Shown here piece after piece: positions 40,507-56,302 of a DNA stretch of 64,000 nucleotides (within the stretch, counting starts at the first letter, position 1; the number at the start of each line of letters is the position of its first letter). The DNA is from Miltoncostaea oceani (GTDB taxonomy: Bacteria; Actinomycetota; Thermoleophilia; Miltoncostaeales; Miltoncostaeaceae): the NCBI RefSeq assembly GCF_018141545.1, contig NZ_CP064356.1:186001-250000 (forward strand), given 5' to 3'. Made by a program: the position numbers and the translations under genes. Under the pieces are notes generated by a model that had not been told where the DNA came from, ran no database searches, and saw only the letters and a program-made list of their open reading frames with translations.

Positions 40507-41027
40507 GTCACCACTCCCAACCGGTCGCGGAGGTCTGTCATCGCGCGAGCGAGCCGCGATTGGGCGGTGCCGATCGGGACCCCGATGAGCTCGGCCGACT
40601 CGGCGAGGCTGTAGCCGAGCCAGTGGTGGAGCACCACGATCGTGCGCCGGTCGGCGTCCAGGCCACGGATCGCCGCAGCGACCTCGGCCTTGCGTGAGGA
40701 CTCCTCCCAGTCGGCTGCCAGCTCGTCCTGATCGAGATCGACCTCCCGCGCGCGTCGCCGTTTCGTCTTGCGCAGATGGTCGAGGCCCTGATTCACGGCG
40801 ATCCGCCGAAGCCACGCGCCGAACTCGCCCTCTCCCGACCACGCCGACAGCGAGCAGAACGCCCGCTCGAAGGACGCTTGGGCGACATCGTCGGCCGCAG
40901 GGCGATGAGCGGTGATCCCGAACGCGACCCGCCAGACCGCGTCGAAATGCCGCGCGACGAGCGCCTCACCCGCGCCGGCGTCTCCGGCCAGGGCGCGCTG
41001 AACCAGTGTGGAGTCGTCATCGGTCAC
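40503..41027 (-). CDS. ECF sigma factor (cassette 1)
   Basis: A 174-residue extracytoplasmic-function sigma factor from GTG 41027; the longer frame upstream is not conserved. Region 2 has a VWRVAFGITAHRPAADDVAQ helix, ERAFCSLSAW and WLRRIAVNQGLDHLRKT. Region 4 has the RRTIVVLHHWLGYSLAESAE and GVPIGTAQSRLARAM recognition helix. No region 3 is present. It is read with, and overlaps, the SecD-like anti-sigma gene. It belongs with cassettes 4, 6 and 7 by its region 4 pattern WL(G/D)(Y/L/F)...E.AE. Confidence 0.88.
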   Translation of the reverse strand: MTDDDSTLVQRALAGDAGAGEALVARHFDAVWRVAFGITAHRPAADDVAQASFERAFCSLSAWSGEGEFGAWLRRIAVNQGLDHLRKTKRRRAREVDLDQDELAADWEESSRKAEVAAAIRGLDADRRTIVVLHHWLGYSLAESAELIGVPIGTAQSRLARAMTDLRDRLGVVT

Positions 41028-41130
41028 GTCACTGAGTCTGACGTCGGTGGGGTGCCCTCTTGTCCCGGCGGATCGCAAGTAGCAGCGACTCAGGAAGGGG
41101 CGCAGTCCCCGCCCGGCGTTGCTGGTCGCA

Positions 41131-41763
41131 TCAGAAGCCGGGCTGCGGAAGGGGCACGGTCCGCTCCGTGAGCACGTCATCCGCAGCATCCCGGAAGGTG
41201 AGCACGATCGTCTTCGGCCGAGCCGCGGTCAGCGTTTCCACCGGAATGCTGATGAGCATGTAGCCGCCACCTCGCGTGGCCCGGACCCCGGGAAGGCTCG
41301 CCTCCACCGCTGCGACCTCATCGGTCGTCCGAACGACGATCCGCGTGGGGTGCGTGGCGCGGCGGCCGTCGGATGCGCCATAGCTGCCGCAGATCGCGAC
41401 AGGGTCCGGCACCTTACAATCGAAGGTTGTCGAGCCGACGAAGCCGCTGTCGGGTCGTGCATCGATCACGACGCTCGTCGGCCCGGACGGACCCCCGCGC
41501 TCACCGGTGAGCACGAGTTCCGCCTCGGGATCCTCGAGCGAGAAGCCGGGAAGAGCTCCTCTCACGGCCGCCGCGCCGGCTCCGGCGAGGGTGACGGCCA
41601 CGACGGCGATGAGAAGCCCCCGTCGCCGCGGGGCGCGTCTCCTTCGGTTCACGTGCGCCGGGGAGTCGGCACGGTCTCCAGCAGTGGCCCGGAGCGTCTC
41701 GACGAGGCGCTCGTCGAACACCGGTGGCGTCTGCACCTCCGGGATACCAGGGGGCAGTGTCAT
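41131..41763 (-). CDS. Membrane anti-sigma-like protein (cassette 2)
   Basis: A 210-residue protein whose ATG overlaps the stop of the sigma gene at 41760 (ATGA). The cytoplasmic segment (1-48) is rich in Arg at its end. One membrane span follows (LLIAVVAVTLAGAGAAAV), then about 140 external residues with two cysteines, which form the C-x-C-like pair in FDCKVPDPVAICGSYG. The external fold is not recognised. By position and topology it is likely the anti-sigma factor of cassette 2. Confidence 0.7.
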   Translation of the reverse strand: MTLPPGIPEVQTPPVFDERLVETLRATAGDRADSPAHVNRRRRAPRRRGLLIAVVAVTLAGAGAAAVRGALPGFSLEDPEAELVLTGERGGPSGPTSVVIDARPDSGFVGSTTFDCKVPDPVAICGSYGASDGRRATHPTRIVVRTTDEVAAVEASLPGVRATRGGGYMLISIPVETLTAARPKTIVLTFRDAADDVLTERTVPLPQPGF

Positions 41764-42353
41764 CGTTTGGCGCTCCTGGTTGTGCTGACGGCGGGCGCGA
41801 CGACGAGCTCATCGGCCGCGGCTCGCGCGAGCTTGCGTCGCGCCCGCGACAGGCGCATCCGGGCGGCGGCCGGTGCGATGCCGAGCACATGAGCCGCCTC
41901 CCGCGGCGTCAGGCCATCGGTCCCGACCAGCATCAGCAGCTCGCGCTCGGACCTTGGAAGATCGGCGATCGGTCCGGCCAGGCGGCGAGCGAGCCGGGAC
42001 GCGTCGATCTGATCGTCGATGAGCTGGCGGTCGTCGTCGGAGAGGAGATCGCGCCCACGGAGGGCGGCGAGTCCGCGCGCCTCCCGCACGCTGCGCCGGC
42101 GTCGAGACGACAGCTCGTGGTGGGCGATGCCGATCAGCCAGGCGACAGCGGATCCCTTGCGTGGGTCGAACCGGTGAGCGGATTCCAGCGCCGCGAGGAA
42201 GGCGGCGGCGACGATGCCGGCCGCCTCGTCGGCGTTGCGGCATCGTGCGATTGCGTATCGCCAAACGCTGGTGGCGTGACGCCGATAGAGGGCTTCGATC
42301 GCGTCGGCGTCGAGCCCGCCCGAGATAGTTCGTGTTGAGGCGGCCCGCGTCAT
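41760..42353 (-). CDS. ECF sigma factor (cassette 2)
   Basis: A 197-residue sigma factor taken from ATG 42353; an upstream in-frame ATG at 42470 would add 39 residues of low-complexity sequence. Region 2: DADAIEALYRRHATSVWRYA, then AGIVAAAFLAALE and AWLIGIAHHELSSRRRR. Region 4: LPRSERELLMLVGTDGLTPR and VLGIAPAAARMRLSRARRKL. It lacks the WLGY-type region 4 of cassettes 1, 4, 6 and 7 and belongs to a second sigma type with cassettes 3 and 5. It overlaps its partner by four bases. Confidence 0.87.
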   Translation of the reverse strand: MTRAASTRTISGGLDADAIEALYRRHATSVWRYAIARCRNADEAAGIVAAAFLAALESAHRFDPRKGSAVAWLIGIAHHELSSRRRRSVREARGLAALRGRDLLSDDDRQLIDDQIDASRLARRLAGPIADLPRSERELLMLVGTDGLTPREAAHVLGIAPAAARMRLSRARRKLARAAADELVVAPAVSTTRSAKR

Positions 42354-42642
42354 CGCCCGATGATTGGTCTGGGGCGGCTCGAGCGCAACGTCGGGTCGTG
42401 GCTCTTGCACTCCTGCCGCCTGGGCAGCCCGAGGGCCCAACTCCCACGCCTGCCGGCGCCGAAACGGCATGCTCCAGTGGCAACTGATTCAGGCTCGAGT
42501 CGACGAGCGCGTTGCCCGCATACACCCGGGTGGCGGCCGAGGGTGCAGCTCTCCGGCGTCCAGTCGGCCTTGGGGTTCCGTGGGAAGAGCATCCTGACCC
42601 CTGACGGAACGGTTGGCTTCTCAGCGGTGGAGGACCGAACCC

Positions 42643-43806
42643 TCAACCCCAGCCCGGTGAGAGTCGCACCCGCATAGCCGCACTGGAGGTGGAGCCCGCT
42701 TCATACGTCACGAGGATGAGGATCTTCGCGGTGACCGGAGGATCACCGGTCCATGTCGTCCCGCCGTTCTGCGCCGGGATCCGCAGCGGACCGTCGATGA
42801 GTCCCGCGGGCTGGAGGAAGCCCGCGAACCTCCTGCGGCGACCGTCCTTCAGGGGTCCGCTCCAGCGCGGATCACCGAGCACCACGCGACGGCCCGCGAT
42901 CTTGGCGACGACCCGGAGGGCGGGCTTGCGCAACCAGATCATGAGGCCGACCCGGTCGCACGCGAACGAGCTCGCGGGTGAGCAGACGACGCCCAGATAG
43001 GGAGGGCGGGTTTGCAGCAGTCGGGCCTGCGAGCCGAACGGCTCGACCTTCACCGGAGGGAGTGGGCCGCCGATCTCCACCGGTATCGACTCGCGCCAGG
43101 CGGTGACCACGCCGTCGCTCGTTCGGTAGTCGATCACAGCCCGCCTGGTCAGGGGATCGAGGGCGGCGTGGAAGACGTTCCCGACGACCGGGAGCACCCG
43201 CCCGTTCACCGATACCTCGACGATCGCGTCGGGAACGAGCCCGTAGACGATGTGCGCGTTGTCGAGCACCTCCCCACCGGCGAGCGACACACGCGGCTGC
43301 CCGGGCGGTCCACATCCCGACGAGCCACCTCCGCGGCTGCCCAGGACGCGCGTGCAGATCGCCCCCGCCGACGTCTTTGCGAGGATGTAGCGATTGCCGG
43401 CCTCCGAGTCGGCCAGGCGGACCGTGTCCGGGACGACGCGCTCGGGGTACTGACCGTCGACAAGCGACGCTTCATCCCCGGTCTGGGCTCGATCGAAGAT
43501 GCCGTAATGGATCGAGGGCGGGGCGACGCTCGCCGTGGGCGAGTCCTCCCCTCCGTGTACGAAGAGGAGCAGCCCCGCCACTAGCGCCACGAGTGCACCT
43601 GCTCCGGCGACGCTCATTGTGCGACGCGTCAGGCCCGCGACGCGACGCCGCCGTGTCGTCGCACGCACGGGCGCCTCGGACAGGATGCGAGCGAGCGTCT
43701 GGCGCGCAGCGGACGACTCCCCGGCGCCGGAAAGAGCCTCCGCCGACACCGGGTCGGCCTGGCGGAGCGCGCGGTCGGCTCGCTCGAGATCCGCGGTCCG
43801 CCTCAT
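42643..43806 (-). CDS. Membrane anti-sigma-like protein (cassette 3)
   Basis: A 387-residue protein that overlaps the cassette 3 sigma stop (ATGA). A cytoplasmic helical segment (1-65) is followed by one span (SVAGAGALVALVAGLLLFV) and about 300 external residues. The outer part opens HYGIFDRAQTGDE, and has a cysteine-containing AICTRVLGS and a GLVPDAIVEVSV strand, a pattern that recurs in predicted sensor proteins of Solirubrobacterales, to my recollection. It has no catalytic motif. It is most likely a sensor and anti-sigma factor. Confidence 0.7.
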   Translation of the reverse strand: MRRTADLERADRALRQADPVSAEALSGAGESSAARQTLARILSEAPVRATTRRRRVAGLTRRTMSVAGAGALVALVAGLLLFVHGGEDSPTASVAPPSIHYGIFDRAQTGDEASLVDGQYPERVVPDTVRLADSEAGNRYILAKTSAGAICTRVLGSRGGGSSGCGPPGQPRVSLAGGEVLDNAHIVYGLVPDAIVEVSVNGRVLPVVGNVFHAALDPLTRRAVIDYRTSDGVVTAWRESIPVEIGGPLPPVKVEPFGSQARLLQTRPPYLGVVCSPASSFACDRVGLMIWLRKPALRVVAKIAGRRVVLGDPRWSGPLKDGRRRRFAGFLQPAGLIDGPLRIPAQNGGTTWTGDPPVTAKILILVTYEAGSTSSAAMRVRLSPGWG

Positions 43807-44354
43807 CGGGTCCCCTCCTGGTCTGGCGTGGTGATCGGCCCCGTGGGCTCCGGGATCGCCCGGTCCGGGCCGAGAGCAGCGGCGAACCGGCGCCGGGCGC
43901 GGTGAAGGCGGACGCGGAACGCGGTCTCGGTGCACCCGCACACCGCGGCCGCCTCGGCGCGCCCGAGCCCATCCCATGCCGTCAGGAGGAGGGCCTCGCG
44001 CTCCCGCGCCGTCAAGCGCGTGAGGGCGCTGCGGACCGCGTCGCCAGTGTGATCCGGGGGAGCACCGCTCGCCGTCCGGGCGTCCTCTTCCAGGCGTGCG
44101 TGGAGACCCTCCCGCCGTCCCTCGGCACGCCGCTGATTGGCGAGCGTGCGACGTGCGACGCCAAGCAGCCACGGCCGGGGCTCGGCGGGCACATCGGCCA
44201 GGCGGCGCCAGGCGACCGTGAAGACCTCGGCGGCGACATCCGCCGCGACGTCGTCGGGCGCCCGTCGTCGCCCGTAGGCCAGCACCGCCGCGTAGTGCTC
44301 GCGCCAGAGGGCTTCGAGTCGGTCGGCATCGCGGTCGCGGTCGTCCATGTCCAT
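43803..44354 (-). CDS. ECF sigma factor (cassette 3)
   Basis: A 183-residue sigma factor from ATG 44354 (MDMDDRDRDADRLEALW); a longer open frame upstream lacks sigma character. Region 2: AVLAYGRRRAPDDVAADVAA, EVFTVAWRRLADV and WLLGVARRTLANQRRAEGRR. Region 4: LTAREREALLLTAWDGLGRA and VCGCTETAFRVRLHRARRRF. The region 4 cysteine pair (CGC) is unusual and could be redox-sensitive. It belongs to the second sigma type with cassettes 2 and 5. It overlaps its partner by four bases. Confidence 0.87.
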   Translation of the reverse strand: MDMDDRDRDADRLEALWREHYAAVLAYGRRRAPDDVAADVAAEVFTVAWRRLADVPAEPRPWLLGVARRTLANQRRAEGRREGLHARLEEDARTASGAPPDHTGDAVRSALTRLTAREREALLLTAWDGLGRAEAAAVCGCTETAFRVRLHRARRRFAAALGPDRAIPEPTGPITTPDQEGTR

Positions 44355-44629
44355 CCGGTCAATGTCCGGCAGGAAGGCCCACGTTACGCGGCTCGTTCCC
44401 GATTGAGTGGAGGAGGCCGGGCGGCACGGGCTGGTTGGCCCCGACGGACCGGTGACCGCGGTCCTGGCCCCGGCAGCTGCCGATGACGAGCCGTGAGCGT
44501 CATGCGCGCAGCTTCGTCGGTCCAAGCGCCCCAGCCCGCCCCAGGCAGCCCGCGGGCCGAGCTTGTTGAGCACCATGAGGCTCGAGGGCGAGCACGCGGG
44601 GGTGCTGCGGTGCCCGTAAGGTTTCTACC

Positions 44630-45157
44630 GTGGACTGGACAGTCTTCAGCGTCGCCGTCACCGGAGCCGTGGCAACCGTGGCCGCAGCACTTCTCTCGCC
44701 TTGGTTCGCCGGGAAGACGGAGCGTTTCAGGCTGCGCGAGACACGAGAAGATCTACGCCAGGCGCGCCGCCTGGATGCGCTCTATGCCTTTCAGGAGGCA
44801 TTCCAGAAGGCGGAGGTGGCTGCGTTCTCCGTCGTGCGACTCGGCTTCGCCGTTCTGCGAGAGGACGAGATGCGTTCAGCCACCCCCTGGGCCGACGCTG
44901 AAGTGCGGTTCGGTGAGGCCATTGCCGCCGGTCGCCTCGCGGCTGCTCGCATCGTTGACGACGATCTGGTCGCCGGCTTCGATGCCTGGACAGGGGAGTA
45001 CGGGAGGCTTCTCGCTTCACTCAATCCGGACACCTGGGCGGCGCGACCTGAAGCACAACGAGCCGCGGCGGTAATCGAGTCGCAGATCCCCCTGACGGAA
45101 GTTGGGAATCGTGTCAGGGACAGGATCCGCGAGTTGATTCCCGAGCTGGGCGGCTGA
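44630..45157 (+). CDS. Hypothetical single-span membrane protein
   Basis: A 175-residue protein starting at GTG 44630. An N-terminal membrane segment (VFSVAVTGAVATVAAALLSPWF) is followed by a cytoplasmic-looking helical region (FRLRETREDLRQARRLDALYAF), with four or more long helices to the end. This layout is common in element-encoded proteins of unknown role. It stands alone between divergent sigma cassettes, with about 275 bases on its left that must hold promoters for it and for cassette 3. Confidence 0.6.
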   Translation: MDWTVFSVAVTGAVATVAAALLSPWFAGKTERFRLRETREDLRQARRLDALYAFQEAFQKAEVAAFSVVRLGFAVLREDEMRSATPWADAEVRFGEAIAAGRLAAARIVDDDLVAGFDAWTGEYGRLLASLNPDTWAARPEAQRAAAVIESQIPLTEVGNRVRDRIRELIPELGG

Positions 45158-45317
45158 GTAGCCCGTCGTCTGCGGCTCGCCGAGCGAAGCCGGCGGCCGT
45201 GGCGAGGGTGCGGGTGGACCGCCCGGCGGTCCAAGCCCCTTGAGCACATGGTCTACGACCTGAAGGGCCGCCCCTACCACGTGGCGTCAGGTCCAGGGCC
45301 TGTGGGATGATCTGCCC

Positions 45318-45868
45318 ATGCCGCTCGTCATCGTCGCGGTTCTCCTCGCCGCCGTGATCCTCGCCGCTCTCCTGATCCTCATGGCGGCGAGCGCGGCCGA
45401 GAGCGCGGTGCGGCTGGCGGGCATCGAGCGGCGGCGCGATCACCTACGCCGTGTCGGCGAGGCGACCCACGACGTCCAGCTCGCGGCAGACCACTACCAG
45501 CGCGCGATGGACTCCTCTCTCGAGCGGAGCTCCGGCGACGGGGTCCTCGCCCGGCGCGCTGAGGAGGTCCGCGACGCCGCCCATCGTTATCAGGAGACGT
45601 GCAGGCGTCTGGTGCGCGTCCTCGCGGGCGGTTCACGCCCGCCTGGGAGCCGGCACCTCCTCGACCTGCTCACCGATCCACACCACCCGGAGGCAGTCGC
45701 GACGGCGCGGCCGGCCGACGGGTCCTCGACGAACTCGTGCACCTGCAGGACGCCCTCGACGCCGCCGTCGTCCCCCTCGGACGCCCGGATGCGCTCTGGC
45801 GCCTCCGGGCGTCCTGGCGTGTCGCACTGCGATCCGCGAGGGCTCGCTTCCGGCGCGAGACAGCCTGA
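45318..45868 (+). pseudogene. Single-span membrane protein with an apparent frameshift
   Basis: From ATG 45318 the frame codes a membrane segment (VIVAVLLAAVILAALLILM) and a helical region to about EAVATA near 45700. A one-base change there would continue in the next frame as AAGRRVLDELVHLQDALDA and WRVALRSARARFRRET to the TGA at 45866-45868. That tail is protein-like, while the original frame runs on into antisense of the next gene. Joined, it would be about 183 residues. I do not recognise it. Confidence 0.45.
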
Positions 45869-45916
45869 GCGCGACCACGGCGACGGCCGGAACGCTCGGT
45901 CGATGGCGAGGCTCTC

Positions 45917-47290
45917 CTACCGGCTCTCGGAGACCGAGATGTCGATAGGGCCGCCGTTCGGATTGGTGAGGGTCGCCCAGGCCGCGATGCGAGTTCCCTC
46001 CGCCGATCCGGCGTCGAGCGGCCACGTGTTCTTGGCATGGGGAGCGACGACGGTGGCGCTCGACCAGGTGCCGGATCGGTCCATCGATGCCGAGACCACA
46101 TCGGCGCTCGACTGAGGGGCAAGCGACAGCAACCGTGACCAGAGGGCCGTGGGCGACTGCCCTCCGGCCAGGGAGAGGCTCGTCGAGGGCGGGCCGCGGT
46201 AGAGGCCCGGGCCGGCCGGGAGCGTGAAGGTGTCGAGGACCGCAGGTGGTGAGGGGGCTCCGGGGTTCGCCCCCAGTCGCGCGGCACGGATCGTGATGCT
46301 CTCCGACGGGACGGCCCATCGCACCCATGCGACGACCAGACCCTCGGCATCCGGTTGGGCCACCACGGTGCCGAAGCCGTTGACCGGGCCGCGGTCCAGT
46401 TCACTCGCTTCACTCCAGTCCACCCCGTCCGCCCGGCTTGCGACGAGCGCCGTCGCACCTCGTGCAGGACGCGCCCACATCAGGTTGAGACGCCCCTGAG
46501 CGTCGTAGGCGAGCGTCGGTTGCGCGCTGTCAGCGACGGAGGGATCGGGCAGCGCCATGTCACGCCAGAGCGCTCCGGCTGCCTCGCTTCGCGTCACAGC
46601 GAGCTGCAGCCGGGGCTTCGCGGAGCTGCCGCGGTTGATCGACGTCGCGAGGACCGCCTCTCCGCCCGGGCCGACGACCAGCTCGGGTGTGCTGAATACG
46701 TCGCCTGTATCCAGTACGGCGACGGGGTCGCTCCACCCCGCGGATGACCGGCGCGCCACGGAGATCGCGCCCCGTGGCCCCAGCGTGCTCCAGGCGACGA
46801 CGGCCTCCCCGTCTTGCCCGATGGCCGCCTTCGGAAAGTAGGACCCGCTGATGACGGGTGCGATGACCTGGGGCTCTCCCCAGCGCCCGCCGGCGGGGCG
46901 GACGCTCGCCAGCAAGACGGTTCGTGAGCGGCTCCAGAAGGCGAAGGCGACGACGCCATCGCCTCGCTGATTGACCGCCATGGAGATGTCGCGGATGCGC
47001 CACAGCTGGGAATCGACGATCGGCGCGGGGGTGCTCCAGCGGCCGCCGAGCGGGCGTTCTGCGCTCATGAGCGCCCACTGCCCACCGCTGCGCTCGGACC
47101 AGACGGCAACGCTCGTACCGTCGTCGCTGGTCGCGCTCTCAGTGCTGCCGACGAGTCCGGCCGGGGAGAGGGTCACCGGTGCGCTCCATCCCGCCGGTGA
47201 GTCATCAGCCCGAAGAACGACGATCACGAGCGCCGCGACCGCGACCGCGACCGCGACCGCGACGCCGAGTGTCATCCACCGGCGCGTCAT
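45917..47290 (-). CDS. Membrane-anchored beta-propeller-like protein (cassette 4, second)
   Basis: A 457-residue protein whose ATG overlaps the stop of the gene upstream (ATGA). It has almost no cytoplasmic segment: MTRRWMTLG, then one span (VAVAVAVAVAALVIVVL). Outside are about seven repeat units with patterns such as WSAPVTLS, DGTSVAVWSERSGGQW, GQDGEAVVAWSTLG and GPGGEAVLATS, typical of a WD/sialidase-like beta-propeller. Its short N terminus could not wrap a sigma factor, so it is likely an accessory sensor to the gene at 47287. Confidence 0.7.
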   Translation of the reverse strand: MTRRWMTLGVAVAVAVAVAALVIVVLRADDSPAGWSAPVTLSPAGLVGSTESATSDDGTSVAVWSERSGGQWALMSAERPLGGRWSTPAPIVDSQLWRIRDISMAVNQRGDGVVAFAFWSRSRTVLLASVRPAGGRWGEPQVIAPVISGSYFPKAAIGQDGEAVVAWSTLGPRGAISVARRSSAGWSDPVAVLDTGDVFSTPELVVGPGGEAVLATSINRGSSAKPRLQLAVTRSEAAGALWRDMALPDPSVADSAQPTLAYDAQGRLNLMWARPARGATALVASRADGVDWSEASELDRGPVNGFGTVVAQPDAEGLVVAWVRWAVPSESITIRAARLGANPGAPSPPAVLDTFTLPAGPGLYRGPPSTSLSLAGGQSPTALWSRLLSLAPQSSADVVSASMDRSGTWSSATVVAPHAKNTWPLDAGSAEGTRIAAWATLTNPNGGPIDISVSESR

Positions 47291-48843
47291 CCGCCACCGC
47301 CGCGGGCAGGAGGCGATCCATCGGCCACCGCGACGATCACTGCCGGTGACGAGCCACCGCCGACCCAGGCGAGCGCGCTCGTGCCGTCCTGGCCGATCGC
47401 GAGCGCCAGATGGAAGCTGACGCCGTCGATTCTCGCCCGCTCGATGGCGCCCGACAGCCCGGCGCGACGCTCGACGACGCTCTGATTGGGCTCGATCGTG
47501 CCGCGCACGAGGACGGTCGCGCGCGAGGGGTCCACGCCGAGGGCCGCCGAGAACGGCCGACCGGCCACAGGGCGTAGGGCGAGGGGCTCCCATTCACCGC
47601 CGACCGGTGCCTGGAAGGCGGACGACGAGTCGGGCAGCAGAACGGCGGTTCCCCCGTCGGCCATGGCAGCGAGCGCGCGCAGGTCGTTGAAGCCAGGGGC
47701 GGTCCGGCCGACGAGCGTCTCCGTGCTCCAGGCTCCCGAGGCATCGGCCGTGACCGCCCAGATGACCCCGGGCTGGTCGAGGTTGCGGGTGCCGCTCCAG
47801 GCGGCGACCGCCGTGCCGGCGGAGTCGATGGCCGTGGCCGGATAGGGCGGGTTGATCGTGGGCGTCCCGATCTCCGACGAAGCGCCCCACCCCGGGCGAG
47901 TCCCAAAGCGCGCGACCTGGAGCGTGTAGCGACGCTCGAGCCCCTGTCCGGCCCGGTTCGACCAGATGAGCGCGGCCCGCCCGGAGGGATCGATCGACAG
48001 CTGCGGGTCGACCGCCTCGCCAGGGCCGGATCCGACGCGCACCGGCGTCAGCCACGCGCCCGAGCTCGTGCGGGTGGACGACCAGACGGCGCCTCCCTGG
48101 TCCCAGGTCGCGACGCTCGAGCCGTCGGCGAAGACCCCGAGGCCCGGCGATTCCAGATCGCGGACGGTTGCGCTCTGGGGAGACACGTCCTCCGCGGCGC
48201 CCCAGACGCCCTCGGCCGAGCGGTGGCGCCCGACCACGGCCCAGCGGCGTGCGACGAGATCCGATAGCTCACCCGCCGGGGCGCCGCTCGGCAGCCGGAA
48301 GGTCTGGGTGATGCGCCGTCCCGCCGTGCGCTCACGCCAGATGACGGTGGTCCCGCCCTCGGCGTCCGAGCCGATCGCCGGGTAGGAGGCGCGCCGTGAC
48401 GGGTCGGAGATCCGCTCGGGCTCCGACCAGGCGGCTCCGGGCAGGCGTGTCGCGACGACGATGCGGCCCGCGCGGGCCCACGCCACCGTCACCGTCCCGC
48501 GTCCATCGATCGCGAGCACCGGTGGGCCGTCGATCTGACTGACCGGCCGACCGACGACCTCGGGGGCCCCGAACGAGAGAGAAGCCGCCGGCCCGCGCGC
48601 AGGCTCCGAGCCGCCGCGGCTGATCAGCGTCGCGGCGACGGCGGCGCCGGCCGTCAGCAGCAGGGCTGCGGCGACGAGCAGGCGCGAGCCGTGGCGCGGC
48701 CGCGGCGCGAGGGCCGCCCACCGGCGCGCGGGTGAGGATGGCGCCTCGATGCCGATCGCCGCGCGGGCGCGTGCCTCGGCGCGCTCGCTCGGCTCCGGCC
48801 AGGCCGGGCGCACATCGCGAAGCTGCTGCTCGAGGTCAGGCAC
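47287..48843 (-). CDS. Anti-sigma-like protein with beta-propeller-like sensor (cassette 4)
   Basis: A 518-residue protein from GTG 48843, which overlaps the sigma gene by eight bases. The cytoplasmic segment (1-50) starts PDLEQQLRDVRPAWPEPSER, like the partners of cassettes 6 and 7. One membrane span (RLLVAAALLLTAGAAVAATL) leads to about 440 external residues of propeller-like repeats (AIDGRGTVTVAWARAGRIVV, SIDPSGRAALIWSNRAG, AIDSAGTAVAAWSG). It is the likely anti-sigma factor of cassette 4 and is followed by a second propeller protein. Confidence 0.72.
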   Translation of the reverse strand: MPDLEQQLRDVRPAWPEPSERAEARARAAIGIEAPSSPARRWAALAPRPRHGSRLLVAAALLLTAGAAVAATLISRGGSEPARGPAASLSFGAPEVVGRPVSQIDGPPVLAIDGRGTVTVAWARAGRIVVATRLPGAAWSEPERISDPSRRASYPAIGSDAEGGTTVIWRERTAGRRITQTFRLPSGAPAGELSDLVARRWAVVGRHRSAEGVWGAAEDVSPQSATVRDLESPGLGVFADGSSVATWDQGGAVWSSTRTSSGAWLTPVRVGSGPGEAVDPQLSIDPSGRAALIWSNRAGQGLERRYTLQVARFGTRPGWGASSEIGTPTINPPYPATAIDSAGTAVAAWSGTRNLDQPGVIWAVTADASGAWSTETLVGRTAPGFNDLRALAAMADGGTAVLLPDSSSAFQAPVGGEWEPLALRPVAGRPFSAALGVDPSRATVLVRGTIEPNQSVVERRAGLSGAIERARIDGVSFHLALAIGQDGTSALAWVGGGSSPAVIVAVADGSPPARGGGG

Positions 48844-49360
48844 GGGGGGTCTCCGCGAGTCGTTCGCGCAGATCGGCCAGCGCGCGGGAGAGGCGGGAGT
48901 TGACCGTGCCGAGGGGAAGCTCGAGGGCCTCGGCGATCTCCGGCGGGGTGAGATCGAGCCAGTAGCGCATCACGATGACCGAACGACGCTCCACGGGCAG
49001 GCGGGCGACCGCCGCCTGCAGGTCACCGTCCGCGTCCGACCGGTCGACCCACTCCACGCTCGGGCTGTCATGGTCCTCGAGGTGGGTGAGGCGCCCTTCC
49101 GAGCGCAGGACGTCGATCGCACGCCGGGTGGTGATCTGTGCGATCCATGCCCCGAAGCGCGCCGGCTCCCCGAGATCGCCGAGCTTGGCGAAGGCGCGCA
49201 CGAACGCATCCTGGGCGATGTCATCGGCGAGTGCCCGGCGCCCTGAGACGGCGAAAGCGCGTCTCCAGACCGACGGCCAGTGCCGACGAAAGAGCTCCGC
49301 GCGCGCCTCGGGCACCCCGTCGCGGGCGCGTTCGACAAGACCCTGGTCGTCAGATCGCAT
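48836..49360 (-). CDS. ECF sigma factor (cassette 4)
   Basis: A 174-residue sigma factor from ATG 49360 (RSDDQGLVERARDGVPEARA). Region 2: RRHWPSVWRRAFAVSGRRAL, DIAQDAFVRAFAKLGDL and WIAQITTRRAIDVLRSEGR. Region 4: RRSVIVMRYWLDLTPPEIAE and LELPLGTVNSRLSRALADLR. The region 4 is close to those of cassettes 6 and 7. It reads leftward and is divergent from cassette 5, with a 439-base gap between them. Confidence 0.9.
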   Translation of the reverse strand: MRSDDQGLVERARDGVPEARAELFRRHWPSVWRRAFAVSGRRALADDIAQDAFVRAFAKLGDLGEPARFGAWIAQITTRRAIDVLRSEGRLTHLEDHDSPSVEWVDRSDADGDLQAAVARLPVERRSVIVMRYWLDLTPPEIAEALELPLGTVNSRLSRALADLRERLAETPRA

Positions 49361-49799
49361 GAGGTCCACACACTGTCTGACGAGCGAGGTGGGCGAACGC
49401 GTCCCGGTGTCGCGCGCCGCCGGCGGCCAAATGCCGCCGCCCCTGTTCCCCGGCATCCGGACGTGGCCCTCGGCGCCCGCAGGGATGGATCGGTGGGTGG
49501 CCGGATGTTTTTCGGCACACCGATGATGTCCAGGCCACCGACGCGCGAACACGCCAAGAGAGCGGCCGGTGCCGCTCTCTTGGCCTGGATCTCGGATCGT
49601 GACCACAGCCGCTCCGCCGGTCGGGCATGCCGAGACCGGCACGCGCTCGGATCCGACGATCAGCGCTGCAGACGGGGCCGATGGGAAACGGGTGCTGACC
49701 CGAAGTTGGCCTGGAGGGTCGAGTGCGGAGGACGCCTAAACAGAACCCGCATCCCCGGTGTCTGTATGGATGGGACGAGTCACCGAGCGGGAGCGGTCG
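49361..49799. other. Divergent control region with a long perfect hairpin
   Basis: The 439 bases between the divergent cassettes 4 and 5 have no supported gene. They hold the inverted repeat at 49553-49584: GCCAAGAGAGCGG and CCGCTCTCTTGGC, a perfect 13-base stem with a six-base loop. A candidate ECF-like element is AGAACCC near 49742-49748 with CTGTATGGA about 15 bases further on, upstream of cassette 5. Both cassettes must be controlled from here. Confidence 0.5.
49553..49584. repeat. Perfect 13-base inverted repeat (hairpin)
   Basis: Arms at 49553-49565 and 49572-49584 with a six-base loop CCGGTG. The stem is longer than most terminators here and has no T run on either side. It lies centrally between two divergently read cassettes, where it could be an operator, a transcription insulator or a bidirectional terminator of antisense RNA. 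Confidence 0.6.
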
Positions 49800-50333
49800 A
49801 TGGATGCGGGTGTCGTGACAGAGCAGCAGTCGATCCACAACGGTGGCGCCACGGCGGAGGATCTCGAGGAGCTCTATCGCGCCCGACTCGACGTGTTCGT
49901 GCGGGTCGCGGCGGCGATCACCGGCGACCGCGATTCCGCCCGCGATGCGGTCCACGATGCCTTCGCGGCGTCCCTTCGCGATCTCGCAGCCTTCCGGCGG
50001 GAGGCGGCGCTCGAGAGCTGGGTCTGGACCGCGGTAGTCAACAGCGCGCGCAATCAGCGTCGCGGGCGCCGCCGGCGTCTGCGGCATGAGGACCCCGCAG
50101 CCACACCTGAGGCGACGGCCACCGCCGTTCCGCCGCTCGACCCTGAGATCCGGGCCATGGTCGCCGCGCTCCCGGAGCGGCAGCGCCTGATGCTGTTCCT
50201 GCGGTACTTCGCAGACCTCGACTACGCGACGATCGGAGCCGTCACGGGTGTGAGCACGGGAACCGTCAGCGCGACGCTCAGCGCCGCTCATTCCGCTCTT
50301 CGAACGGCCATGGAGACAGGAGGGCACCGATGA
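49800..50333 (+). CDS. ECF sigma factor (cassette 5)
   Basis: A 177-residue sigma factor from ATG 49800, chosen for a GGGAG ribosome site; GTG 49758 would extend it by 14 residues. Region 2: LEELYRARLDVFVRVAAAIT, RDAVHDAFAASLRDLAAF and WVWTAVVNSARNQRRGRRR. Region 4: LPERQRLMLFLRYFADLDY and TGVSTGTVSATLSAAHSAL. It is of the second sigma type. Its partner starts inside its stop codon (ATGA). The basic run RRGRRRRLRH follows region 2. Confidence 0.87.
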   Translation: MDAGVVTEQQSIHNGGATAEDLEELYRARLDVFVRVAAAITGDRDSARDAVHDAFAASLRDLAAFRREAALESWVWTAVVNSARNQRRGRRRRLRHEDPAATPEATATAVPPLDPEIRAMVAALPERQRLMLFLRYFADLDYATIGAVTGVSTGTVSATLSAAHSALRTAMETGGHR

Positions 50334-50893
50334 CTGACGGCCGCGACCCCGAGGTCATGGCTCTGCTGGACCGGCACACGCCGGATCTCGACGAGCGATC
50401 AGATTGGCCGCGCGTGCTGCGGGAGGCGAAGACGGCCCGACCGACTCCCTCTCGCAGGTTCCGGCACCTCCGCTGGATCCCGACCGTCGTCGGCGCAGTC
50501 GGTCTCGCTGCTCTCATCGGGGCCCTGATCATCGCTACGCCGACCGGACGCGAGACGAGTGCGCCGCCGACCGCCGGCACGGCCAAGCCGATCACGACGG
50601 TCAGGGCCTACCTCCGAGACGAGGCAACGATCGCCGAGGTCGGGCACCTCAGAGCCGCCCTCGCCCGGCTGCTGAAGGACGGCCGCATCACCTCGTTCCG
50701 TTACGAGTCGAAGAGCGCCGCCCTTGAGCGCCTGCGTTCGCGTCTGAAGAACCCATCAATCCTCGATGAGTTGCCCGCGAACCCGGTGCCCGCGAGCTTC
50801 GTCGTCGATCTCGCCCCAGGGATTGGAGGTAAGGGTCTCGCTCGGGTGCTGGCCTCGGAGCCCGCGATCGATTCAGGGCTCGGGGTCCGATGA
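50330..50893 (+). CDS. Anti-sigma-like protein with FtsX extracellular domain-like sensor
   Basis: A 187-residue protein with a cytoplasmic segment (1-49), one span (TVVGAVGLAALIGALII, about 52-69) and an external domain at 90-176. That domain follows the FtsX extracellular domain closely: VRAYLRDEATIAEVGHLRAA, then RITSFRYESKSAALERLRSR, ILDELPANPVPASFVVDL. In FtsX this domain binds and activates peptidoglycan hydrolases at division. FtsX's other membrane helices are absent. It overlaps the sigma gene by four bases, so it is probably its anti-sigma factor with a borrowed sensor. No zinc-binding anti-sigma motif is present. Confidence 0.75.
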   Translation: MTDGRDPEVMALLDRHTPDLDERSDWPRVLREAKTARPTPSRRFRHLRWIPTVVGAVGLAALIGALIIATPTGRETSAPPTAGTAKPITTVRAYLRDEATIAEVGHLRAALARLLKDGRITSFRYESKSAALERLRSRLKNPSILDELPANPVPASFVVDLAPGIGGKGLARVLASEPAIDSGLGVR

Positions 50894-51174
50894 GCAGCGT
50901 CCCTGGTTTCGGGAGAACCCGGCTCGCCTGTGGAAAGGGGCCGTCTGCAGAGTGAGAAGAGCCGACCCCGGTGCGACGAATACAGGCAAGTGCCCCCGGA
51001 CGTCAGCGCATCGGGCCTCGGTATCCCCTTGGGACGCGAGCGATCCCCAGGCGAGCGCTCGCCGCGCTTCTGGGACCGCAAGCTTCCCCGGGGGCGTCCT
51101 GATGGATGCGTCGCCCTTCGGTATTTCCACTCGGCGATGGATGCAGACGGGCCGTTCGCGAGTCTCATTGGGGT

Positions 51175-51702
51175 ATGAACGTCTCCCCGAGCGATGAAGA
51201 ACTCGTTGGCGAGGCTCGCGCCGGGTCGCGCGATGCGGCCGGACGTCTCTTCGATCGGCACTGGCGCGTGGTCTGGCGGGCCGCCTACGCAGTCTCGGGC
51301 AGCTCGGAGGGAGCCGAGGATTGCGCGCAGGACGCATTCATGCGGGCCTTCGCCCACCTCGGCGACTACCGCGGCCCGAGCTTCCGGGCGTGGGTCACCC
51401 GTATCGCCGTGAACAGGAGCCTCGACCACCTCCGCCGCGCGCGACGCCTCACGCCGATCAGCGAGGAGACCGTCGATCCCTCGGTGAGGATGCCCGCCCC
51501 CGACGCGGCCCTCGATCGGGCGCTCCGGGATCTGTCCGCCGACAAGAGGGCGATCGTCGTCCTGCGCTTCTGGCTCGGATACAGCCCTCCCGAGGTCGCC
51601 GATCTGCTCGGACTGCCGCTCGGGACGGTCCACTCGCGTCTGTCGCGCGCGCTCAATCAGCTGCGAGAAGACCTGGAGGTGACCGATGTCGAGCGAGCTT
51701 GA
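51175..51702 (+). CDS. ECF sigma factor (cassette 6)
   Basis: A 175-residue sigma factor from ATG 51175 (NVSPSDEELVGEARAGSRD). Region 2: DRHWRVVWRAAYAVSGSSE, DCAQDAFMRAFAHLGDY and WVTRIAVNRSLDHLRRARR. Region 4: KRAIVVLRFWLGYSPPEVAD and LGLPLGTVHSRLSRALNQLR. It is a close paralogue of the cassette 4 and 7 sigma factors. It overlaps its partner gene by 17 bases. The 281 bases upstream contain no gene. Confidence 0.9.
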   Translation: MNVSPSDEELVGEARAGSRDAAGRLFDRHWRVVWRAAYAVSGSSEGAEDCAQDAFMRAFAHLGDYRGPSFRAWVTRIAVNRSLDHLRRARRLTPISEETVDPSVRMPAPDAALDRALRDLSADKRAIVVLRFWLGYSPPEVADLLGLPLGTVHSRLSRALNQLREDLEVTDVERA

Positions 51703-53056
51703 AGAGCGACTCCGTCGCGCGGGTGGGGATCTCCCCGAGCCCCCGGCCGAGGCGACGGCGCGCATCCGGTCGGCAGCCCTCGAGAGCCTCTCCGCTCCCC
51801 TCGTGCCGTCCCGCCTTCGCCGCACCGCCGTCGCGCTTCGCAGGCCGATCGGGATCCTTGCGACGGCGGGTGCCTTCGGGGGTATCGCCGTCCTCCTGGG
51901 ACTCCTCATCGTCGCAGGGCCTTCCTCGGAGGACCCTGTTCCCGGATCGCTCCGTCCCGACCTGTCCTCCCTTACGAGTGTGCGCACCTGTCTGGAGCCG
52001 CGACTGCGCGAGCCCTGTGTGGCGGGCACGCCGCAGGTGCGCGCCGCGACGCCTGCCCTCCGCAACGCACCCTGGCTCTACGGCACCCCCGTGCGTCGAC
52101 TCGGAAGCGAGCGGCCGCGCCCCTCGCTGATCTTCCCGGCGGGAACCACTTACGGGCAGGCACTCGATGCCCTCTATGTCTCGGCTGTCCTGACCGGGGC
52201 CCTGCCCCCCAACACGACCCTCGGTCCGCCTCTGCCGCAGGGCGCGGTGTTGCTCCGACCGACAGATCCCGCTCAGGGGATCGCCATCGACCTGCGCGCG
52301 CCGTTCGGCTACACGCCTCCGCACGGCATGATCTTCGGCGCCATCTACTCCGGGACGCCGAGTGGGCCGACACGCGGCCGCCTCTGGCCACCCGGGCTGC
52401 GGATCGCCGTGCCGACGCTGCCCGTGTGCATGATCATCAGCAACCGCGCCTCGGTACCGCCGAAATGCGGCCCGAGTGACGGGCCGAGCATTCGCGGAAC
52501 TGACCGCAGCATCCAGGCGCTTCCGAAGGTCATGGTCGCCGCGGATCTCGTCCCCGGCTATGCGTCCGTGGCCGGGCCCGTGGTCAGTCGCTCGCCGGCG
52601 AGCTGGTTCTCGGGAGCCCGGATCGGGGTGGGGTCGGCCGACGGCGTGCTGGCGGACTCCCCGGTCGTATTCGTCACATCGAGCGGCCCGGTGCTCGTCG
52701 GGAGGGTCACGAAGGCGTCATCGAGGACGGCAGAGGTCGCGTTCATCACGGACGGTCGCTCCGTCGTGGGCGCGACGGTCTCCAGAGCAGGGAGCCGTCC
52801 AGGAGTTCTGCGGTCTCCCGCGGTCGGGAAGCTGGTCTTGGAGCGAGTCCCGGGAAGCATGTCTGGCGAGGTCGTCGTGACGAGTGGTCTCGCCGCCGGC
52901 ACGGGACCCTCGATCTATCCCCGGGGCTTGAGGATCGGACTCGTGGCGCGAGTAGGTGACCCGGGGTCGCGGCCAGGCCAGGAGATCGAGGTCGTCCCGA
53001 CGCGGGACCCCGGCTCGCTCACCGAACTAACCGTTCTCGTGCCCCGAACTGGCTAA
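51686..53056 (+). CDS. Anti-sigma-like protein with MreC-like sensor
   Basis: A 456-residue protein. The cytoplasmic segment (1-53) opens SSELEERLRRAGGDLPEPP; one span lies at about 55-78. Residues 147-209 form a module shared with the cassette 7 partner (SLIFPAGTTYGQAL, RAPFGY). Residues 300-453 read like the beta-sandwich core of MreC: GSADGVLADSPVVFVT, LVGRVTKASSRTAEVAF, GEVVVTSGLAAGTGPSIYPRG, LRIGLV and LTVLVP. MreC scaffolds the cell elongation machinery. The coiled coil of true MreC is missing. It is likely the anti-sigma factor of cassette 6. Confidence 0.75.
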   Translation: MSSELEERLRRAGGDLPEPPAEATARIRSAALESLSAPLVPSRLRRTAVALRRPIGILATAGAFGGIAVLLGLLIVAGPSSEDPVPGSLRPDLSSLTSVRTCLEPRLREPCVAGTPQVRAATPALRNAPWLYGTPVRRLGSERPRPSLIFPAGTTYGQALDALYVSAVLTGALPPNTTLGPPLPQGAVLLRPTDPAQGIAIDLRAPFGYTPPHGMIFGAIYSGTPSGPTRGRLWPPGLRIAVPTLPVCMIISNRASVPPKCGPSDGPSIRGTDRSIQALPKVMVAADLVPGYASVAGPVVSRSPASWFSGARIGVGSADGVLADSPVVFVTSSGPVLVGRVTKASSRTAEVAFITDGRSVVGATVSRAGSRPGVLRSPAVGKLVLERVPGSMSGEVVVTSGLAAGTGPSIYPRGLRIGLVARVGDPGSRPGQEIEVVPTRDPGSLTELTVLVPRTG

Positions 53057-53095
53057 GGGGAGGCCGGTCCCTGGGGCTGGTTGTCGCTCCTGCTC

Positions 53096-53957
53096 TCAGT
53101 CCGCCGAAGGCTTGGACCGCGCGCGATCGTGCCAGGTCTCCAGCAGGAACGTTGCGACGGTGCGCGCCGAATCCGCCGCGAGATGCGCGTGACGCGCACG
53201 GAGGGGACTGCGTTTGGTCTTGCCGTGCCCGGTCCCAAGTTCGTTCCTCAACGCGTTGAGGCCGTGCACCGCTGTCTGCAGGCTCTCGAGGACGCTGGCC
53301 GCCGAGGCGCTGCCCTTCGCGCTTCCCGGCACCGAGTCCTTCGCGATGCCAAGCTCGGTTGCGGTGGCCTGGTAGAGGGCGTGCATGTTGCGAAGCGCCT
53401 TCAGATTCTGGCCTTCTGCCTCAAGGATCGCCTTGCAGACGGCCTCGACGAGCTCCTTCGAATGCCCGATCGCCTCGTCGGGGCGCTCTTCGCACAGCGC
53501 ATCAATCCGCGACATCTTGTCGCGGAGCAACTCCGGGTCCGTGAGCAGGTGGTAGTTCGAGAAGTCGAGCGGGGGCCGTCGTTCCTGGGCCGGCGTCACG
53601 CGACCGTCGTCGGCGATCTCGAAGCCGGCCTGGCTCCAGGCCGCGCACGAACGGCTCCCACTTGCGCCACCAGCCCCCGTCTGGCCGGCGGGCATGCTCG
53701 ACCAGGGCGCGTGAGTAGATCCGCAGAAGGCGTGGGCCCGCGGTTTCATCGGGCCAGTCGATGCCGAGCTGATAGCGCTCGGCGAGGCTGCGGCGCTCAC
53801 CTGTCAGCTCAACACGCGAGGCGGCGACGGGCCTGAACCCCTCCCCGTCGAATAGGTCTCTGATCGCGCCGAGGTACACGTCGCTGCAGGCATTGCGGAA
53901 GGCGATCTGAACCGGGCGCGGGACAATCCGGTTCGCGGTGGTGCTGGCTCCGGTCAC
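53096..53957 (-). pseudogene. Abortive infection family protein, frameshifted
   Basis: From GTG 53957 the first frame codes about 105 residues (RLLRIYSRALVEHARR, WWRKWEPFVRGLE). Near 53632 an extra base, GAGCCAGG where GAGCAGG would restore EQAGFE, shifts the phase. The second frame continues QAGFEIADDGRV and then the abortive-infection C-terminal domain: GHSKELVEAVCKAILEAEG, LESLQTAVHGLNALRNELGT and HAHLAADSARTVATFLLETW. The R-N-x(5-6)-H core (RNELGTGH) is typical. Joined length would be about 286 residues. It lies on the opposite strand between cassettes 6 and 7, so it is probably an independent phage-defence insertion. Confidence 0.7.
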
Positions 53958-54107
53958 GAGTGCGACTCTATTGCGGTCTGCCGCCGCACGGATAGGAAGC
54001 TGCAACACTCGAGGGGTCTGGCCGGAAGCCTCCTCAACGTCGTGATCCTCGCCGGGGCGACTGACCCGGGAGCGGACGGGGCTGCGCCTGCGTATGGATA
54101 GGCAGCG

Positions 54108-54629
54108 ATGAAGACCCTGACCGACAGCGAGCTGGTTCTCGCCATCAGAGCGGGATCGAGGGAGGCCGCCGACGATCTGTTCGCTCGCCACTGGCCGCGG
54201 GCGTGGAAGGCGGCCTACGCGGTCCTCGGGGACCGCCCCGCCGCCGACGATGCCGCCCAGCGCGCGGTGGAGCGGGCCATCCGCGCCCTCGACCAGTTCC
54301 GCACCGATGGCTCGTTCGGCGCCTGGATCGGCCGGATCGCGGTCAACCAGGCGATCGACATGCTGCGGCGCTCGCCCCGCGATGCTCCCCTTCCCGAGGC
54401 GCTGTCCGCACCCGAGGTCTACGCCGAGATCCTCGAGCGCGACGCGCTGCTCGCGGCCGTCGCCCGGCTCGACGAGGACCGCCGGGTCGTCGTCGCCCTG
54501 CGCTATTGGCTCGACTTCGACCCGCCGGAGATCGCCGAGCATCTCGGCATCCCGATCGGGACGGTCTCCTCGCGCCTGTCGCGCGCCCTGTCGGACCTAC
54601 GCGGAATCCTGGAGGTACCCGAGCCATGA
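54108..54629 (+). CDS. ECF sigma factor (cassette 7)
   Basis: A 173-residue sigma factor from ATG 54108 (KTLTDSELVLAIRAGSREAA). Region 2: RHWPRAWKAAYAVLGDRPA, DAAQRAVERAIRALDQF and WIGRIAVNQAIDMLRRSPR. Region 4: RRVVVALRYWLDFDPPEIAE and LGIPIGTVSSRLSRALSDLR. It is a close paralogue of cassettes 4 and 6. The upstream GTATGGATAGG is very near the start, so it is either a -10-like element of a leaderless mRNA or a poor ribosome site. Confidence 0.9.
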   Translation: MKTLTDSELVLAIRAGSREAADDLFARHWPRAWKAAYAVLGDRPAADDAAQRAVERAIRALDQFRTDGSFGAWIGRIAVNQAIDMLRRSPRDAPLPEALSAPEVYAEILERDALLAAVARLDEDRRVVVALRYWLDFDPPEIAEHLGIPIGTVSSRLSRALSDLRGILEVPEP

Positions 54630-56302
54630 GCGATCTCGAGACGCGCCTCCGCGCGATCGGAGAGCTCCTTCCCGACCCCGACGAGCGGGCGACCGAGGCG
54701 GGCCGACGGGCGATGCACGACGCACGCGCGTCAGCGCCCTGGGCCACCGGCCGGCGCAGGTCGTGGTTCGCCTCGCGCGGGCCGCGCACCTACCTGATTG
54801 CGGCGGCGCTGGCGCTCGCCGTCGGCGGCGGGGCGCTCGCGGCGGGTGGCTGGGGCATCTCCGACCTGCCGCCCTTCGGCGACGACGACCGCTCCGCCTT
54901 CGTGCTGCCGGCCACCGACATCCTCCCCGGTGGCTACGAGCGCACACGCCCGCCGACGTACGCGGACCTGCCCGAGCGCCCGTCTCTGCTCTTCCCGGCG
55001 GGCGTGGGCTACACGGAGGCGCTCGCGCGCTACTCCGCCGCCCGGCAGGCCGGCCGGATCCTGCCGGAGGGCGTCGAGCTCACCGATCCCCTGCCGGCGG
55101 GCAAGGTGGTGATGGTGCGCTCCGACGGCCGCGTCGCCCTCGACCCGGCCGCCCCCTTCGGCTACTCGGCGACGACCGGGCTCGTTACCACCCTGAGCGC
55201 ACTATTCGACGGGCGGGCGATACCGATCGCCCGCTGTCAGCTGCTGATCGGCGCGGACGATCCGGCCTCGCCGGCCTGCGACCAGGCCGGCGTGCGGCGC
55301 GCCTATGTACGCGAGGGCGTCGCCGGGCGCTGGGTGCCCTCGCCCAACGAGGAGGCGGTCTTCGATCGGCTGACCCCTGCGAGCACCGAGCTCTCGGTGA
55401 TCGACCGGCCGACGACCCCACTGGTGCGGCTCCCGTCGACCCTGCCGCTCGCAGAGCCCGGCTCGGGGGCGGCCGCGCCCCGCGTCGGCAGGCTGGCCCT
55501 CGAGACCCCGGACGTGCGCCTGATCGTCGTGCCGGTCGAGCCGGACCGCCTCTGCTTCATCGCGCAGGAGCGGGCGGGGGGAGCCGGCTTCTCCTGCGGC
55601 CCGAGGGCGACCTTCCTCAACCGGGGCGCCTCGCTCAGCGGGGGGCGCTACATGAACGGCCCCTATCGCCTGAACGGCCTCGTCGGTGACGGAATCGACC
55701 GCGTGAGCACCGATGACGGCACCGTCGTGCGTGTGACCAACAACGCCTTCACGATGCTGCCGAAGCCCACGGCCCGCGTGCTCACCTTCAACGGACCGGT
55801 CGGCTCGTTCCGGATCGCGGTACCGCGCTTCGGTGATGGCGGGCCACCGCGCTTGACGCCGGATCGCTCGAAGCAGCGCGAGCTGCTCGGCGTCGATCTC
55901 GCAGATGGCGGCCGCGCGTCGATCCGGGTCGCGCCGAACCGCGGAGGTGGCCGGTGCGTCTGGGTCTACGTGAAGAAGAACTCGCGCAGCTTCGCGTGCA
56001 GTCGGCCGGGCGACTCACCATCGCTTCCCGACGATCAGGTGACCGGGAGCTTCATCCGTCGCATCGACCGGATCCCCTCGCTCTTCCAGGGCCAGTTCTC
56101 GTCGCGAGTCGGCTCGGTGGAGATCGCGTATGCGGACGGCACTGCCACCCGCCTGCGTCCGACCGAGGGCTACGTGCTCTACGAGGTGCCTGCGGCGCAT
56201 ATGACCAAGGAGCGGCGGGCGGTCTCGGTGACGACCTTCGATCAGCAGGGGGTCGCGTTGGTGAGGGAGGAGGTGCGCCGCCCGGGGTCCCTCAGACCAT
56301 GA
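54626..56302 (+). CDS. Anti-sigma-like protein (cassette 7)
   Basis: A 558-residue protein whose ATG overlaps the sigma stop (ATGA). The cytoplasmic segment (1-54) opens SDLETRLRAIGELLPDPDER, the same motif as in cassettes 4 and 6. One span (TYLIAAALALAVGGGALAAG) lies at about 55-74. Residues 119-180 are the module shared with the MreC-like protein (SLLFPAGVGYTEALARY, LPAGKVVMV, AAPFGY). The remaining 370 residues contain paired cysteines and repeated units but no recognised fold. It is the likely anti-sigma factor and sensor. Confidence 0.75.
   Translation: MSDLETRLRAIGELLPDPDERATEAGRRAMHDARASAPWATGRRRSWFASRGPRTYLIAAALALAVGGGALAAGGWGISDLPPFGDDDRSAFVLPATDILPGGYERTRPPTYADLPERPSLLFPAGVGYTEALARYSAARQAGRILPEGVELTDPLPAGKVVMVRSDGRVALDPAAPFGYSATTGLVTTLSALFDGRAIPIARCQLLIGADDPASPACDQAGVRRAYVREGVAGRWVPSPNEEAVFDRLTPASTELSVIDRPTTPLVRLPSTLPLAEPGSGAAAPRVGRLALETPDVRLIVVPVEPDRLCFIAQERAGGAGFSCGPRATFLNRGASLSGGRYMNGPYRLNGLVGDGIDRVSTDDGTVVRVTNNAFTMLPKPTARVLTFNGPVGSFRIAVPRFGDGGPPRLTPDRSKQRELLGVDLADGGRASIRVAPNRGGGRCVWVYVKKNSRSFACSRPGDSPSLPDDQVTGSFIRRIDRIPSLFQGQFSSRVGSVEIAYADGTATRLRPTEGYVLYEVPAAHMTKERRAVSVTTFDQQGVALVREEVRRPGSLRP

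Follow-up and report, generated by a model that had tools for sequence, protein, structure and literature searches.

We identified a gene pair in which an ECF sigma factor is followed by a likely membrane anti-sigma factor whose extracytoplasmic part is an FtsX-like domain, in a window of 64,000 nucleotides of the Miltoncostaea oceani genome (the whole stretch of DNA analysed). The second gene (50330-50893, plus strand) is an intact open reading frame of 187 amino acids (aa). Its start overlaps by 4 bases the stop of the sigma factor gene (49758-50333, plus strand; Sigma70_r2 6.1e-7, Sigma70_r4_2 1.2e-10, TIGR02937 7.4e-18), which encodes 191 aa as listed from a GTG start, a later start being possible. 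The 187-aa protein, a putative inhibitor of this sigma factor, consists of a proposed sigma-binding cytoplasmic part with a motif common to proteins behind orthologous sigma factors (aa 1-48, 50330-50473), a hydrophobic membrane span (aa 49-69, 50474-50536, by hydropathy; aa 47-73 by a sliding hydropathy window), and the FtsX-like domain (aa 88-187, 50591-50890). The latter includes a counterpart of the partner-binding X-lobe of FtsX (aa 129-156, 50714-50797), delimited by alignment to the FtsX of the same genome. The intergenic stretch 49643-49757, between this sigma factor gene and a divergent one (48836-49642, minus strand), is probably a promoter region, as predicted from the gene layout. 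A search for RNA elements in 49000-52000 gave none at gathering score.

The outer domain matched the Pfam family FtsX_ECD (PF18075) at aa 90-162 with an E value of 5.8e-9 and 36.9 bits (cut-off 23.5), the only Pfam match of the protein over cut-off. The initial annotation had placed an FtsX extracellular domain behind one membrane span, and both were recovered; the strings that it had quoted lie at aa 93-100 (AYLRDEAT), 124-139, and 144-157. The Pfam match stops at aa 162, and the alignment with the genome's own FtsX reaches aa 186. An FtsX-domain profile built without this protein scored 63 bits (best of 2000 shuffles, 3.2), NCBIfam models of full-length FtsX matched the same stretch far under their cut-offs (33.6 bits vs 255), and a phmmer search of PDB sequences with the 187-aa protein gave no match. 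The domain was also modelled alone from its single sequence with no alignment (mean pLDDT 68, with the X-lobe stretch as the part of lowest confidence), and the four top Foldseek matches of this model among 350,542 PDB chains were FtsX domains (E 6.6e-4 to 6.4e-3). In a second structural alignment, the five highest Z scores all belonged to FtsX domains (9.3, 9.3, 9.2, 8.7, and 8.5), with the best superposition (Z 9.3) covering 93 residues at 2.9-3.0 Å and the first unrelated chain following at Z 8.0 over 72 residues. A family match and a structural match to FtsX were thus both found. The domain is predicted to have a Porter fold with an inserted X-lobe, the fold being taken from the model and the X-lobe from sequence alignment. 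A model of the whole protein was poor (pLDDT 49.6, two-row alignment), and its best Foldseek matches were still FtsX (E 0.014).

Full-length FtsX was ruled out by the length of 187 aa, one span instead of four, the missed NCBIfam equivalog cut-offs, and the lack of a PF02687 permease part. An FtsX of the FtsEX permease is not indicated by the gene context either, as sigma and anti-sigma factor genes, and no ftsE, neighbour 50330-50893. The protein therefore shares the domain family (above cut-off), the fold, and the X-lobe with the extracellular domain of FtsX in FtsEX, but has a single span and no permease part or FtsE gene, and is fused to a cytoplasmic sigma-linked part.

The designation as anti-sigma-like is supported indirectly, by gene linkage and not by profiles: the gene is co-encoded with an ECF sigma factor, as evident from the 4-base overlap and the sigma domains, and this linkage is conserved, whereas no anti-sigma family of Pfam or NCBIfam matched the 187-aa protein over cut-off. 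The closest relatives of the sigma factor are encoded in genomes G009 (57%) and G018 (56%). Behind each of them lies the gene of a single-span protein that resembles, in its N-terminal region, aa 2-72 (52%, G009) or aa 2-93 (42%, G018). For the motif of aa 1-48, these two proteins scored 91 and 74, higher than any of 1000 shuffles (shuffle maximum for the 91, 56), and two further sigma-linked proteins scored 71 (L023; shuffle maximum 50) and 59 (L024; equalled by 1 of 1000 shuffles). A Pfam scan of the outer parts of these four relatives gave no match over cut-off. The common N-terminus and sigma factor combined with differing outer parts therefore suggest that the sensor was swapped, and an unchanging base beneath exchangeable outer parts would be expected of an anti-sigma factor. 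A sigma factor ortholog of the same genus (G001, 70% over aa 13-118) is encoded at a contig end that falls inside that gene. According to one survey, class I anti-sigma domains have at least 50 aa and shorter ones could be class II (PMC7406223); only 48 aa precede the span here, and the cytoplasmic part may therefore be a class II anti-sigma domain.

The only real FtsX of the genome is encoded elsewhere (G000:C1, near 2595500) in the gene row ftsE-ftsX-S41 peptidase, with ftsEX near 2595000, and has 37% identity to the anti-sigma-like protein over aa 53-186 and 41% over the domain. A three-residue insertion in the first half of the domain recurs in FtsX of its family and is absent from five FtsX outside the family, as judged by alignment. 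Trees of 42 and 58 domains, resting on 96-99 columns, both put the domain among its family's FtsX (80/94 and 84/94, respectively; branch not starred in either tree). In pair scores, the genome's own FtsX ranked 6 of 29, and the four best listed were FtsX of the same family. By these comparisons, the nearest relatives of the outer domain are the FtsX proteins of the family to which the gene belongs. A viral origin was also considered and rejected, as searches of viral contigs with the genome's FtsX and with a conserved DNA pattern of FtsX gave nothing.

Escherichia coli FtsX binds EnvC through the X-lobe and loses this binding when the X-lobe is removed (PMC7668044), and the matching lower lobe of Mycobacterium tuberculosis FtsX binds RipC (PMC10694151). 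The X-lobe is, by sequence identity to the own FtsX, the best kept part of the domain studied here (18/28 vs 22/69 elsewhere); FtsX proteins of the family share 68% among themselves in the X-lobe and 50% elsewhere. Family-conserved sites were kept in the X-lobe vs the rest at 9/9 vs 7/10, 10/10 vs 10/15, 14/18 vs 14/24, and 14/18 vs 15/31 for four thresholds (Fisher p of 0.12, 0.057, 0.16, and 0.041, respectively), which is suggestive only of a retention beyond the conservation of FtsX itself. The aromatic residues named in PMC7668044 and PMC10694151 are absent from this X-lobe and from the own FtsX. The X-lobe is poorly kept in the sigma-linked FtsX-like domains of three other genomes (G049, G039, and G363).

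We propose that the 187-aa protein is a single-span anti-sigma factor in which a receptor for an FtsX partner, most likely a coiled-coil NlpC/P60 hydrolase, is coupled to sigma factor release, a reading to which we give an even chance. Inside the cell, aa 1-48 would hold the ECF sigma factor encoded upstream. The outer domain, putatively a copy of the FtsX domain of the lineage that has retained the X-lobe, would bind a partner of FtsEX, most likely an NlpC/P60 peptidoglycan hydrolase by way of its coiled-coil part. Gain or loss of this partner (the direction of the signal could be either) would change the exposure of the anti-sigma factor to a site-1 protease; intramembrane cleavage would then free the sigma factor, and the cell would thereby read the free pool of a division hydrolase. 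Seven NlpC/P60 matches are present in the genome. By eye, the long proteins L181, L182, and L183 have a signal-like N-terminus and a coiled-coil-like stretch, and L184 has a shorter coiled-coil-like stretch. No hydrolase gene was found beside the sigma/anti-sigma pair or beside ftsEX, where ftsX is followed by the S41 peptidase gene. In PMC7668044 and PMC10694151, partners bind FtsX as a pair of domains; a lone domain may bind them poorly.

We searched for PF18075 in a phylum sample of 396 genomes (374 with the domain, 16 with two or more matches) and in an overlapping class sample of 299 genomes (278 with the domain, 16 with two or more, 11 of which are not in the phylum tally). Besides the genome studied here, seven of the 15 multi-copy phylum genomes encode the extra domain directly behind a sigma factor gene (G399, G383, G159, G049, G059, G039 twice, and G363; the match in G363 falls below the Pfam cut-off and one in G039 is at it), and eight have no such linkage (G405, G334, G162, G112, G098, G073, G260, and G105). 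The 11 further class genomes comprise one sigma-linked case (G459), seven in which a lipoprotein-like, secreted, or singly anchored protein bears a lone domain (G476, G037, G462, G465, G494, G541, and G585), and three with full or split FtsX (G473, G618, and G545). In total, eight other genomes thus have FtsX-like domains on sigma-linked single-span proteins. In the trees, G383 has its sigma-linked domain on one branch with its FtsX (99/97), and the sigma-linked domains of G399 and G159 share a branch with FtsX of these two genomes (99/91); the long rows of G363, G039, and G459 are placed uncertainly. Forcing five sigma-linked domains into one clade was rejected (p 0.016), as was joining the domains of G000, G399, and G159 in a clade (p 0.023); the p values are lenient in that the groups were picked after seeing the tree. 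In the pair scores of nine sigma-linked domains, seven have the own FtsX at rank 1 or 2 of 29, and the remaining two have it at ranks 5 and 6 (6 for the gene studied here). The FtsX domain thus appears to have been captured more than once in the phylum.

FtsX is not the only domain of an envelope machine that is linked to sigma factors in this lineage. The next ECF sigma factor gene in the window (51106-51702, plus strand; Sigma70_r2 7.6e-17) is followed by an anti-sigma-like partner (51686-53056, plus strand) with an MreC barrel core at aa 299-451 (PF04085, 2.9e-23; 1.2e-34 for the match with the MreC of the same genome). A second MreC was found in two of 61 genomes (this one and 60 relatives), namely this genome and G018; the extra MreC of G018 (L188:2164-3708) resembles the product of 51686-53056 and is also encoded behind a sigma factor gene. 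SecD P1-head domains occur in two genomes of the same family, G009 and G018, on single-span proteins whose genes overlap sigma factor genes (L133:1480-2430 and L134:19-972, both minus strand); a sigma-linked domain of this kind was not found in the genome studied here. L025 and L026 had looked like SecD by eye and gained no support from Pfam, which leaves L133 and L134 as the cases that hold. We scanned 22 proteins behind sigma factor genes and read the surroundings of 38 of 61 sigma factor hits; most other anti-sigma-like proteins of this genome had no Pfam match, or matched RskA_C, DUF4349, or, weakly, BNR.

That neighbouring anti-sigma factors carry many unlike outer parts, mostly with no Pfam match, would also fit the capture of the outer domain simply as a stable ferredoxin-like fold that now binds an unrelated ligand such as a lipid, a muropeptide, or an antibiotic, and the retention of the X-lobe is statistically weak. 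That one family has taken up domains of three envelope machines (FtsX, MreC, and SecD), and that FtsX was captured repeatedly in the phylum, argues against such generic reuse, and we regard it as unlikely, with a small but real chance of being right.

FtsX domains also recur in detached form, on proteins that are secreted or lipoprotein-like and have no sigma factor gene (in the seven of 11 further class genomes named above and in G405), and the domain therefore seems useful alone. This would be consistent with a protein that acts mainly as a decoy, titrating the hydrolase from FtsEX as a brake on septum cutting, with the sigma factor link only setting its own dose. The gene for the 187-aa protein nevertheless overlaps the sigma factor gene, and its N-terminus is common to anti-sigma factors with other outer parts, so that a role chiefly as decoy is improbable here. 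The proteins L165, L166, L169, L171, L172, L173, L175, and L114 are lone FtsX domains of this lipoprotein-like, secreted, or anchored kind with no sigma factor gene found beside them, and such domains are possibly free decoys for FtsX partners. A tandem pair of FtsX extracellular domains is encoded in one frame near a contig end (L121:2587-3285, minus strand).

The outer domain might instead meet FtsX or the divisome in a mixed dimer, and thus report the assembly of FtsEX and not a hydrolase. FtsX domains are paired in the solved complexes of PMC7668044 and PMC10694151, and the closest matches of the domain are FtsX of the same family; the Porter part has, however, drifted more (22/69 identical) than the X-lobe (18/28), and we judge this reading to be as improbable as a decoy role. 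A decayed, functionless ftsX fragment beside a sigma factor gene is hardly credible, as the protein does stop shortly ahead of where FtsX has its second span, but has an intact frame, a kept N-terminus that is absent from FtsX, the 4-base overlap with the sigma factor gene, and retained conserved sites.

Returning to the proposed hydrolase receptor, we tentatively extend it to a view, on balance somewhat doubtful, in which ECF anti-sigma factors of this lineage report on essential envelope machines through a copied outer domain (that of FtsX for division, of MreC for elongation, and of SecD for export) that acts as bait for the machine's partner. The FtsX bait would have arisen independently several times in the phylum, on each occasion from the FtsX of the host, since it has to fit that host's hydrolase. 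A sigma factor regulator that carries the hydrolase-binding domain of FtsX itself would give bacteria a direct and testable means to sense whether FtsEX holds septal wall hydrolases properly. If anti-sigma factors have repeatedly captured the outer domains of FtsX, MreC, and SecD, this would indicate a general monitoring of essential envelope machines, and each captured domain would name its own candidate ligand. Short actinobacterial proteins beside sigma factor genes are sometimes annotated as FtsX, and the architecture may therefore be visible in databases. Searches of open papers for FtsX with anti-sigma factors gave none that describes it, as judged from the search listings and from passages of PMC7775120 and of PMC7406223, in which FtsX does not occur.

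The proposed system can be compared with three known types of sigma factor regulation, of which RsiV and RsgI are precedents by analogy. RskA-type anti-sigma factors are likewise sigma-linked membrane regulators, and three RskA_C proteins were found in this genome, but the protein described here has neither an RskA_C nor a zinc-finger part by Pfam. The outer domain of RsiV, the membrane anti-sigma factor of SigV in Bacillus subtilis, is DUF3298, which was absent from the 187-aa protein in the Pfam scan. RsiV is a lysozyme receptor (PMC4183432, PMC5014341). The protein studied here is similarly proposed to sense a wall hydrolase directly; it has another outer domain, and its ligand would be the cell's own division hydrolase. 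RsgI anti-sigma factors have outer domains of types that also occur in the machinery under their control. The likeness to RsgI-SigI of Clostridium thermocellum (PMC4711584) is that of a domain-bearing anti-sigma factor, with carbohydrate-binding parts there and a domain of the division machine here.

The pair described here lies in a region of the window (38746-56302) with seven pairs of ECF sigma factor and anti-sigma-like genes in about 18 kb. In the same region, a BNR-repeat membrane protein (45917-47593, minus strand) is encoded downstream of the anti-sigma-like gene 47287-48843, and the two look related by eye. The products of 51686-53056 and 54203-56302 seem, also by eye, to share an uncharacterised outer module ahead of their C-terminal parts.
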